A stretch of 64,000 bases of DNA from NCBI RefSeq assembly GCF_000092245.1, contig NC_014166.1, forward strand, positions 310,001 through 374,000, in the 5' to 3' direction. The notes beneath the pieces were generated by a model that did no database searches, was not told the DNA's origin, and saw only the letters and a program-made list of their open reading frames with translations. Source of the DNA: Arcobacter nitrofigilis DSM 7299 (GTDB lineage: Bacteria; Campylobacterota; Campylobacteria; Campylobacterales; Arcobacteraceae). The position numbers and the translations under genes are program-made. The number at the start of each line of letters is the position of its first letter. The first letter of the stretch is position 1. This document shows, piece by piece, positions 4,155 through 59,252 of this stretch.

Positions 4155-5360
4155 ATTAGTTTAGAAAAAAAGAAAAAACTCACGATAAAAAATGTATATA
4201 AGGTTTTTGGAGAGAAACCGAAAAAAGCTCTAGAAATGCTCAAAAATGGTCTTTCAAAAGAAGAGATTTTTGAAAAAACAAATATGACTATTGGTGTTCA
4301 AAATGCAAGTTTTGAAATCAATGAAGGTGAAATATTTGTAATCATGGGACTATCAGGTTCTGGAAAATCAACACTAGTAAGATTGTTAAATAGACTAATA
4401 GAGCCAACTTCTGGGCAAATAATTATCGATGAAACTGATATTACAAATTTAAATGACAAAGAGTTGATTGATATTAGAAGAAGAAAAATATCAATGGTAT
4501 TTCAATCTTTTGCACTAATGCCACATATGAACATTATAGATAATGCGTCATTTGGGCTAGAACTAAGTGGAATTAGTAAAGAAGATAGATATAAAAAAGC
4601 ACAAGCTGCACTAGATCAAGTTGGATTATCACATCATGCTTTATCTTACCCAGATGAATTAAGTGGTGGTATGCAACAAAGAGTAGGATTGGCAAGAGCT
4701 TTAGCAAATGATCCAGATATTATGCTTATGGATGAAGCTTTTTCAGCCCTTGATCCTCTTATAAGAACTGAAATGCAAGATGAACTTTTGACCTTACAAA
4801 GTGAACATCAAAGAACTATTGTATTTATTTCTCATGATTTAGATGAAGCTATTAGAATTGGTGATAGAATTGCAATTATGCAAAATGGTGAAATATCTCA
4901 GGTGGGAACTCCAGAAGAGATTATCAATAACCCTGCAAACGATTATGTAAAATCATTTTTTAAAGGCGTTGATGTGACAACAGTTTTAACTGCATCACAT
5001 ATTGCTAAAAAAAGTTATCCTACAATTATAAAAAAAGATGGTTTTGGAATTAATTCGGCAATTCAATATATTAATGATTATGATTTCGATTTTGCATATT
5101 ATCTTACAAAAGATAATAAGTATTTAGGAGTCCTTACCCTTGAAGCTTTAAAAGAACAGAAAAAAATAAATGGAAATCTTGAAGACTCTTTACTAAAACA
5201 AGAGGTTGTAAATGAAAATGATTCTATTGCTGATTTTATAAATATTATCGCAGAATCATTTTTCCCTATTGCAGTTGTAGCTGATAATAGAAAATATAAA
5301 GGGGTCATTTCAAAACGAACCCTATTAAAAACAATTGATGAAGGAGCGATAAATGGCTAG
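4155..5360 (+). CDS. proV: Glycine betaine/proline ABC transporter ATP-binding protein (ProV/OpuAA type), probable AUU start
   Basis: ATPase of a quaternary-amine osmoprotectant importer. It has Walker [10 protein letters not shown], signature LSGGMQQRV, Walker [13 protein letters not shown] and a C-terminal pair of CBS-like segments in the last 110 residues. The first ATG, at 4236, would remove the family's conserved N-terminus ([20 protein letters not shown]). That conserved sequence is open upstream to a stop at 4140-4142, and the only plausible initiator is ATT at 4155, placed six bases after a strong AAGGAG. Its last eight bases overlap proW. Identity is firm; the AUU start is inferred. 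Confidence 0.92.
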
Positions 5361-56605: not shown

Positions 56606-58141
56606 TTACTTGTAAAAAAGTTTTATAATACCTGCTAAAAATAATACTAAAGCAAAGCTTTTTAAATCTTTGTCATACAAAAGAATAAAAAAGCTAGATA
56701 GAATTAGAATTAAAGAGTTTGTGATTCCTTTTACATAACTTTTTAACTCTTTTGCTAAATACTCAATTTGATTATTTGAAACTTCAATTTGTAAAGTTCC
56801 CTCACTAGCTTTTTTTACTACATCCTTTAACTCTTTTACAAAAAATGGTAAATCTTTTACTTCATCAATAATTGTCTCCGTTATTGTATCTTTTGCCCCA
56901 AGGGCTTTTGGAAGATTATTTTGCAAGATTGGTAGGATGTCTTTTATTCCATTGAAATTTTCTATATAAGTAGTCCCTAAACCTTCCACAATAGCACTAA
57001 CTCTTAAGATATAAATAGCATCACTTGGTAGTTTAAAAGGCATATTTCTAGTTGTTTCTAAAATCTCAAAGGCAAGTTTTTGCATAGATTCACTACTTAA
57101 ATTATCATTTGAAAATATATCAAACATATTTGAGGTAAACTCTGCAAGTTCTGAAGTAGGAGCTTCATATGATATGGTTCCAAGTCTTTTACTAGCAGCA
57201 ATATAGAGTTCATAATTTTGTTCATTGGCTGCTTTTATTAACTCAATTATTGCTATTCTTTTATCATTTGGTACAGTTTTTACCATCCCAAAATCAAGTA
57301 AAATAAGCTCACCTTTTTTATTTACAAGTAAATTCCCAGGATGGGGATCTGCATGGAAGTATCCATTTATAAGCATTTGAGTAGTATAAAAATCGACTAA
57401 TTTTGCAATAATATTTTTAAAGTCAATTTTGTGTTTAAAGATATTTTCTTTATCATCAAATCTAAATCCTTCTTCATAACTCATAACAATAGCATCATCA
57501 CTACAATACTCTTCATATGGTTTAGGAAACTTTATACCACTATTCTCATATACATGGGAAAATTTTTTTAGATTTGCTAACTCTTTATTTAGTGAAACTT
57601 CTTCTTTAATCATCTTTGAAAACTCAACAATAACAGCTTCTATAGAGTTTTTAGTATAATGTGAAAATAAAGGTTTAAATAAAAAATTAAAAAAGCTTAT
57701 GATTTTTATATCAGCTAAAATTTGTTTTTTTATGCCATCTCTTCTTAATTTTACAGCAACTTTTTCTCCACTATTTAAATATGCCACATGAACTTGTCCA
57801 ATAGAAGCAGAAGCTATGGCTTTTTTATCAAAGCTTTTGAAAGTAAGATCTTTAAAGGCCTTATTATAAATCTTTTCATAACTTTTTTCATTCATTGGTG
57901 GGATTTGGTCATGGAGGTTTTTTAACTCATCAAGATAATCTTTTGAAAAAAAATCAGACCTAGTAGCCAATACTTGAGCTAGTTTTATAAAACTAGCCCC
58001 AAGTTTAACAATAGTATTTTTTAAACTTTTTGGTTTTAGTGGTTTTAAAAATAAAAAGCTCTCTTTTCTTTTTATAACTAAATAGATTGTTAATAAAAAG
58101 AAAAATACACTTAGTATTCTTTTTGGTGAATAATTATTTAT
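56606..58141 (-). CDS. AarF/ABC1/UbiB-family kinase-like protein with no canonical start codon
   Basis: About 511 residues if read from an ATA at 58141. The first ATG/GTG/TTG in frame is the TTG at 57970, but that would cut the N-terminal family motif: KLAQ (53-56, the KxGQ position, here with Ala for Gly) and an upstream membrane segment (about 9-23) are open in the same frame. Other motifs are IASASIGQVHVAYL (Ala-rich loop), YFHADPHPGNLL and LLDFGM. The frame is -1 to the preceding phasin-like gene, at a TTTAAAA heptamer next to its stop, with AGAGGA just before. Either AUA initiation or frameshifting is possible. UbiB proteins support quinone or lipid metabolism. Confidence 0.88.
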   Translation of the reverse strand: MNNYSPKRILSVFFFLLTIYLVIKRKESFLFLKPLKPKSLKNTIVKLGASFIKLAQVLATRSDFFSKDYLDELKNLHDQIPPMNEKSYEKIYNKAFKDLTFKSFDKKAIASASIGQVHVAYLNSGEKVAVKLRRDGIKKQILADIKIISFFNFLFKPLFSHYTKNSIEAVIVEFSKMIKEEVSLNKELANLKKFSHVYENSGIKFPKPYEEYCSDDAIVMSYEEGFRFDDKENIFKHKIDFKNIIAKLVDFYTTQMLINGYFHADPHPGNLLVNKKGELILLDFGMVKTVPNDKRIAIIELIKAANEQNYELYIAASKRLGTISYEAPTSELAEFTSNMFDIFSNDNLSSESMQKLAFEILETTRNMPFKLPSDAIYILRVSAIVEGLGTTYIENFNGIKDILPILQNNLPKALGAKDTITETIIDEVKDLPFFVKELKDVVKKASEGTLQIEVSNNQIEYLAKELKSYVKGITNSLILILSSFFILLYDKDLKSFALVLFLAGIIKLFYK

Positions 58142-58401
58142 TTTAAATCCTCTTTTAATTTTTCTAAATCCTCTTTTGTAGCAAGTCCTAGTTCATCAAT
58201 TACTTCTTTTAAGATTCTTTTTATTTCATCTTTTGCTTTTTGTTCTTCGTCTTTACCTTTTTGTTCAAGGGATTCTAAAAAGCTTTTTGCATCATCTTTT
58301 TTTAATTTACCTTTTTTTTCTAAGGCTTTTATCTCTTCTTCAACTTTTTCCCTAATAACAGCTGCTGCACCAAAGCCAGTATTTAATAATTCTTTTAGCA
58401 T
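58138..58401 (-). CDS. Phasin-like coiled-coil protein
   Basis: An 87-residue, highly charged helical protein: MLKELLNTGFGAAAVIREKVEEEIKAL... then lysine/glutamate heptads to the end, of the PHA-granule-associated/PhaF-like type. The hydrophobic GFGAAAVI patch could touch a lipid or granule surface. A gene of this kind is often found beside UbiB genes. Its stop codon overlaps the start region of the UbiB gene, and the last sense codons form U UUA AAA, a -1 slippery heptamer. It follows thiD after 80 AT-rich bases. Confidence 0.75.
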   Translation of the reverse strand: MLKELLNTGFGAAAVIREKVEEEIKALEKKGKLKKDDAKSFLESLEQKGKDEEQKAKDEIKRILKEVIDELGLATKEDLEKLKEDLK

Positions 58402-58481
58402 TTTGATATCCTTTTTTATTTTTAGATTTCTATTATTATATAATATAATACAATAGTATATGCATTGGTAGCAAAAAAATG

Positions 58482-59252
58482 TTAATTAATAATTTCTCCT
58501 GCTACCTTATGGGCGATTGGGCCTTTCCCTGAACCTAAACTTGGAGCATTTTTTATTGCATGAAAAATAAATTCTTTTGAGATACTAATTGACTCCTCAA
58601 GTGTTTTCCCAAGAGCTAGATTTGCAGCAATTGCACTTGAAAAACTACAACCTGTTCCATGGGTATTTGAGGTATCTATAAAATCAGATTGAAAAATCTT
58701 TTTTTGCCCATTTTTGTAAAATAAAGTATCTATAGAGACTTTTTTATTATCTATTTGTTGGGTATGATTTTTTATTAAAATTTCACAAGGTATATTAATA
58801 ATTTTCTTTAAAGCATCATTTCCAAAAAGTTCTTTTGCTTCATATAAGTTTGGAGTAGTAACTTTTGAATATGGAAACAGAGTTTTTAAATTTTCAATTG
58901 CATCTTCATTTAAAAGTTTTGAACCAGCTTTTGATATAAAAACAGGATCAAATACTATAGGAATATTTAAATCTTTTATAGAGTCTCTAACTACATCAAT
59001 AATATCATTTGAAAAAAGCATTCCAATTTTTATGCAAGCTACATCAAAATCATCTAAAACTGCATCGATTTGGTCTTTGATAAAAGATGGACTTACTTCT
59101 TGAATATTTGTTACACCTTTTGTATTTTGAGCAGTTAAAACAGTAATCACACTACAACCAAAAACACCAAATGCCTCAAAGGTTTTTAAATCAGCTTGAA
59201 TACCTGCTCCTGCACTACAATCACTTCCTGCTATTGTTAATACTACTTTCAA
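58482..59252 (-). CDS. thiD: Hydroxymethylpyrimidine/phosphomethylpyrimidine kinase
   Basis: A 256-residue ribokinase-like enzyme of thiamine synthesis that phosphorylates HMP and HMP phosphate. Signatures are TIAGSDCSAGAGIQADLKTFEAFGVFG at the N-terminus, IKIGML, FDPVFISKAGSKLL, TPNLYEAKELFG and the anion-hole GTGCSFSSAIAANLALG with the catalytic Cys region. It is full length. It diverges from the MCP gene at 59427 and may be cotranscribed with the phasin-like and UbiB genes. Confidence 0.95.
   Translation of the reverse strand: MKVVLTIAGSDCSAGAGIQADLKTFEAFGVFGCSVITVLTAQNTKGVTNIQEVSPSFIKDQIDAVLDDFDVACIKIGMLFSNDIIDVVRDSIKDLNIPIVFDPVFISKAGSKLLNEDAIENLKTLFPYSKVTTPNLYEAKELFGNDALKKIINIPCEILIKNHTQQIDNKKVSIDTLFYKNGQKKIFQSDFIDTSNTHGTGCSFSSAIAANLALGKTLEESISISKEFIFHAIKNAPSLGSGKGPIAHKVAGEIIN

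Follow-up and report, generated by a model that had tools for sequence, protein, structure and literature searches.

Organization of the junction between the phasin-like gene and ubiB

The window, by which we mean the whole 64,000-nucleotide stretch of Arcobacter nitrofigilis DNA analyzed here, carries on its minus strand a gene for an ABC1/COQ8-type atypical kinase (ubiB-like) whose beginning overlaps the end of a small phasin-like gene. The features of this junction are as follows, where AUH stands for AUA, AUC or AUU:

58138..58401, minus strand: phasin-like coiled-coil gene, 87 aa, with a TAA stop that overlaps the AUA (AUAA)
58148..58155, minus strand: Shine-Dalgarno (SD) sequence AAAGAGGA, within the last codons of the phasin-like gene
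58141..58147, minus strand: U_UUA_AAA heptamer (TTTAAAA), judged incidental
58139..58141, minus strand: putative start codon (AUA) of the ubiB-like gene, in frame and at GGA-N6, with AUH at the corresponding site of about 100 relatives
56606..58141, minus strand: ubiB-like gene, 511 codons counted from the AUA
57968..57970, minus strand: TTG, the first start codon of conventional type in this frame, which we do not take to be the start

Read from the AUA, the protein is an ABC1/UbiB-like kinase in which the ABC1 kinase domain is present (Pfam PF03109, E 1.7e-59, 201 bits against a cut-off of 22.9), and its relatives in the PDB are COQ8A/ADCK3 and ABC1 proteins. With TIGR01982, the model of the UbiB equivalog of ubiquinone synthesis, it scored 253 bits, below the curated cut-off of 487.55, and we therefore refer to it as a UbiB-like ABC1 protein and not as the curated equivalog. 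In another locus (L210, G338:C1:1365127-1366646) the ubiB-like gene lies in two frames, possibly owing to a frameshift or a sequencing error. The phasin-like protein matched NF047773 weakly, below the cut-off of that model; its ORF (58401-58138, minus strand) ends in GAG GAT TTA AAA TAA, and a phasin-like gene was found upstream of ubiB in 152 of 165 loci. A search with Rfam over 57800-58600 found no known RNA element.

The first-pass annotation had placed TTTAAAA at 58147-58141, AGAGGA at 58153-58148 and ATA at 58141-58139 of the minus strand, and these positions are correct. It had also described the UbiB frame as lying at -1 to the phasin-like frame and as devoid of ATG, GTG and TTG ahead of the conserved N-terminus. 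The minus-strand sequence bears out both statements, the first conventional codon being the TTG at 57970, inside the motif KLAQVLATR. Ribosomal slippage and a start at AUA had both been left open, with a lean to initiation; our analysis strongly supports the AUA start and does not uphold slippage.

Start codons of ubiB-like genes among relatives

Homologous ubiB loci were taken from genome contigs and from the family and class of the window, and their regions were extracted. After removal of loci identical around the junction, 168 scannable loci remained, and in each of these as many as 20 codons ahead of the conserved Tyr 4 of the UbiB-like protein were scanned. No ATG, GTG or TTG preceded the conserved N-terminus in 92 of the 168 loci, and 88 of these 92 carry ATA, ATC or ATT exactly at GGA+6. 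Of the remaining four, L005 has its SD one base further away, L052 has a weak SD, and L069 and L209 were given a misplaced anchor. AUH at GGA+6 alongside a conventional codon elsewhere was seen in another thirteen loci. ATG, GTG or TTG at GGA+6 was found in none of the 168 loci scanned.

Start types were classified for 165 ubiB loci from Campylobacterota, of which 103 were assigned an AUH start (63 ATA, 36 ATC and 4 ATT) and 62 a conventional one (23 GTG, 20 ATG and 19 TTG). One start was called per locus, and where several conventional options existed the one with the best SD was taken, a rule that favours the conventional class. The AUH call for L185, a locus of a Sulfuricurvum-type branch, is probably spurious. 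The junction of this locus reads GTA where sister loci have a GTG start, possibly another near-cognate start. One supported branch of 116 loci, in which AUH dominates, contains those of the Arcobacteraceae and of the Sulfurimonas, Sulfurovum and Sulfurospirillum type. According to a tree built from 164 proteins, there were at least 10 switches of start type, and ATA, ATC and ATT replace one another at least 10 times within the AUH loci.

An ATG at this position in sister genomes, which the first-pass annotation had named beforehand as refuting evidence, is absent, since both genomes of the same genus have ATA with the same SD. These two genomes, together with AUH in about 100 loci, already refute the idea that the AUA arose by faulty sequencing or by decay of a start codon; we found no point in its support and consider its probability negligible.

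The N-terminal region of the UbiB-like protein is conserved from the AUA onward according to the comparison with relatives. This bears on the reading that translation begins at TTG 57970 and that the in-frame sequence upstream of it is untranslated. Although this TTG is the first conventional start codon in the UbiB frame, a start there would delete 57 residues, strongly conserved positions among them, and over these residues synonymous changes exceed non-synonymous ones between close pairs. Moreover, the Leu codon at this place varies among 101 relatives (TTA in 39, TTG in 29, CTA in 16, CTT in 15 and CTG in 2). We regard a start at this TTG as extremely improbable.

Strength and spacing of the Shine-Dalgarno sequence

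In 864 kb of this genome, the distance from AGGA to ATG peaks at exactly 6 (79 cases), and the GGA-N6-AUA spacing of ubiB, with TTTAAA as the six-base spacer between GGA and ATA, equals this modal value. The duplex energy of AAAGAGGA with CCUCCUUU is about -5.8 kcal/mol. Across the 165 ubiB loci, the median SD duplex energy was -5.8 kcal/mol for AUH loci versus -0.75 kcal/mol for ATG/GTG/TTG loci (p 3e-25). SD strength also tracks AUH along the tree, where a mean of 8.6 out of 9 independent contrasts went the same way and 0 the opposite way (p 0.004). Lineages with ATG, GTG or TTG starts have mostly lost the strong SD site, a trade-off visible in sister loci, L120 having ATG and no GGA whereas L087 has ATA and retains GGA.

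The Glu codon of the phasin-like gene that overlaps the SD is GAG in 68 of 68 loci with Glu at this place, compared to 25% GAG in a genome sample, which is a supporting and not an independent observation because it follows in part from the AUH calls, for which GGA was required, and GGA after GAN needs the final G of the preceding codon. Other Glu codons near the end of the phasin-like gene are GAG in 115 of 256 cases. In 55 AUH loci the AUA overlaps the phasin stop (stop at +1), so that a change to ATG would turn TAA or TAG into TGA. This constitutes a partial constraint against ATG; TGA makes up 14% of the stops in the genome sample.

Judged by these comparisons, the arrangement of SD and AUA at ubiB is far beyond chance, and about 100 further ubiB loci show it too. 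The comparative evidence establishes where the start lies, that AUH is conserved and that it goes together with a strong SD, and in our view the ubiB-like gene very probably initiates at the AUA at 58141-58139.

Frameshifting and translational coupling

A programmed -1 frameshift at U_UUA_AAA would produce a phasin-UbiB fusion, alone or beside a separate protein. The heptamer does lie in the right frame, immediately ahead of the phasin-like stop, and exact TTTAAAA occurs in 33 of the 86 overlapping AUH loci, but in 44 of the 86 the overlap within reach contains no X_XXY_YYZ heptamer. Twelve AUH loci are without an upstream phasin-like ORF; after exclusion of L020, for which only 45 bases of upstream DNA were available, there remain 11 loci whose upstream DNA is ample but shows no recognizable phasin gene, and these keep SD-N6-AUH. 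In five AUH loci, the phasin gene ends upstream of the ubiB start. The missing heptamer in 44 loci and the persistence of the start in loci that have no phasin gene mean that frameshifting is neither conserved nor needed.

Downstream RNA structure was not better than that of shuffled sequences (z -0.94 and -0.29). An SD that stimulates -1 frameshifting usually lies at least 10 bases upstream of the heptamer, whereas the SD at ubiB abuts it; the earlier remark had likewise taken its closeness as unusual for -1 stimulation and as favouring initiation. The heptamer itself can be put down to Asp-Leu-Lys codons in an AT-rich genome. In E. coli, frameshifting on such motifs depends strongly on stimulators, yet the motif is the primary determinant (PMC4066793). 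As a candidate for programmed -1 frameshifting the junction was rejected, having the heptamer in frame and lacking both conservation and downstream structure, and we hold a fusion made in this way to be very unlikely.

Initiation at the AUA could also depend on coupling alone, with ribosomes that terminate on the phasin-like gene being delivered to AUAA and re-initiating there, so that the AUA is merely tolerated and weak expression is not selected. The phasin stop at +1 in the 55 loci named above and the fact that coupled gene overlaps are common among bacteria would fit such an arrangement. Against it, loci in which the phasin gene is missing or stops short of the ubiB start still keep AUH and a strong SD, and both occur also in unrelated genes with no phasin partner. 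We therefore consider coupling unlikely as the sole explanation; it may add to AUA initiation as the main mechanism, and is possible without being required for initiation.

Other genes with probable AUH starts

A scan for AUH starts covered 864 kb and then 400 kb of the 3.19-Mb A. nitrofigilis genome (G000), 1.26 Mb in total, and yielded nine candidate ORFs with an SD and AUH and no plausible conventional start. A rough extrapolation from these nine suggests about 20 such genes per genome. A strict test for enrichment of AUH at AGGA+6 over 864 kb yielded only 2 of 4 cases (p 0.07). Numbers this small do not by themselves prove a class spanning the genome, for which the support comes from gene-by-gene comparisons. 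The following genes were compared:

4155..5360 of the window, plus strand: ProV-like ABC ATPase, the second AUH-start gene in the window, with a likely ATT start and AAAAGGAG upstream
G000:C1:664974: HI0933/BaiN-like flavoprotein (L252), putative ATA start
G000:C1:128619: AEC-family transporter (L376), putative ATT start
G000:C1:890390: uvrB (L396), putative ATA start, the first ATG lying within the Walker A motif

The open frame of the ProV-like gene contains no ATG, GTG or TTG before codon 31, which is its first ATG, and most of the relatives examined have ATT or ATC at the start place, alternatives being possible in some. Of 27 parsed loci of the HI0933/BaiN-like gene, 26 have AUH at GGA+6 and one has ATG and no GGA. 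For the AEC transporter, 13 family members have AUH (ATT, ATC or ATA) and most others ATG, GTG or TTG with no comparable SD.

The clearest positional control for AUH starts is uvrB: at the exact place where other genomes have the ATG or TTG of the MAKF-like N-terminus, G000 has ATA, and L397 and L405 have ATC. The uvrB gene of L412 has ATG at GGA+6, and the exclusion of ATG from a strong SD is therefore limited to the ubiB and BaiN-like loci seen and does not apply to every gene. The related genomes L406 and L420 show CTG at the uvrB start position. A sensor kinase gene (G000:C1:387353) appears to start with ATC, ATC and ATA in three genomes. Further candidates with an SD and AUH from the scan of G000 are a second sensor kinase, a secreted protein and an HD-like protein (G000:C1:151120, ~907871 and 1275868). 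The infC gene was considered as a fellow AUH gene and rejected, as in the Arcobacteraceae (L211) it has a conserved TTG start overlapping the thrS stop codon (ATTTGA).

These comparisons raise the idea that Arcobacteraceae and in part other Campylobacterota possess perhaps 20 genes per genome that start with AUA, AUC or AUU behind strong SDs. They would form a stable second tier of initiation with a shared low, IF3-tunable expression, missed by gene finders that accept only ATG, GTG and TTG. We consider this proposal about as likely to be right as wrong. Its members would perhaps be the ubiB-like, baiN-like, AEC transporter and proV-like genes, uvrB and the sensor kinases. The ubiB-like gene shows the sequence features of such a class, with no conventional start, optimal spacing and AUH kept in 103 of 165 loci.

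Proposed mechanism of AUA initiation

We posit that the 30S subunit binds AAAGAGGA and that the initiator tRNA pairs imperfectly with the AUA six bases downstream, the strong SD compensating for the weak codon. The product would be a separate UbiB-like protein of 511 residues, probably with formyl-methionine as its first residue. We infer that the weak AUA holds synthesis low and leaves it open to control by IF3, which rejects AUU, AUC and AUA, and that ubiB may be under a second control, exerted by translation of the phasin-like gene that overlaps it; the stop of the one and the start of the other have two bases in common (AUAA).

That AUH is conserved and preceded by a strong ribosome-binding site suggests a start that is weak by design and not a slipping ribosome. 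By analogy with known genes, we lean slightly towards IF3-type control as the purpose of the AUA start. Since infC starts at TTG in this genome, an autoregulatory IF3 loop of the infC type is not evident.

Comparison with known systems

In bacteria, starts at AUH are considered isolated rarities, namely infC, pcnB and a few in S. aureus, and no report of AUH starts in Campylobacterota was found in the literature searched, coverage of which was partial. The ubiB-like genes display deep AUH conservation with free exchange of AUA, AUC and AUU, and in none of the loci that we examined does ATG, GTG or TTG stand at the strong SD. If confirmed, the annotated starts of a conserved gene set in Arcobacteraceae and their relatives are likely wrong or truncated, and the group would offer a natural system for studying what selects weak starts and whether IF3 coordinates them.

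In E. coli, the weak AUU start of infC limits its translation. The same effect is attributed to the AUU start of pcnB (Binns and Masters 2002, as cited in PMC13009471). Like these two genes, ubiB has a weak AUH start of conserved identity; it differs in being another gene, in the interchange of AUA, AUC and AUU within the family and in its phylum-level range, and infC itself starts at TTG in Arcobacteraceae, unlike in E. coli. In S. aureus, infC and ccpN (AUA) and cvfC1 (AUU) have extended SDs, were mapped by Ribo-Ret and are conserved across species, and reporter output from the AUA and AUU starts was lower than with AUG (PMC13009471). The ubiB-like genes share the AUH start, the strong SD and the conservation across species. 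In contrast to the experimentally studied S. aureus cases, which concern Bacillota and other genes, they are known by comparison alone, and AUC is common among them.

With -1 frameshifting of the dnaX/IS type, the ubiB junction has in common an X_XXY_YYZ heptamer and a nearby SD. It departs from this type in that the heptamer is not conserved, the SD spacing is wrong, downstream structure is missing and the start outlives the upstream gene. The ubiB-like gene thus probably exemplifies a known kind of start in a new gene family, with an unusual depth of conservation and a probable wider class in the group.
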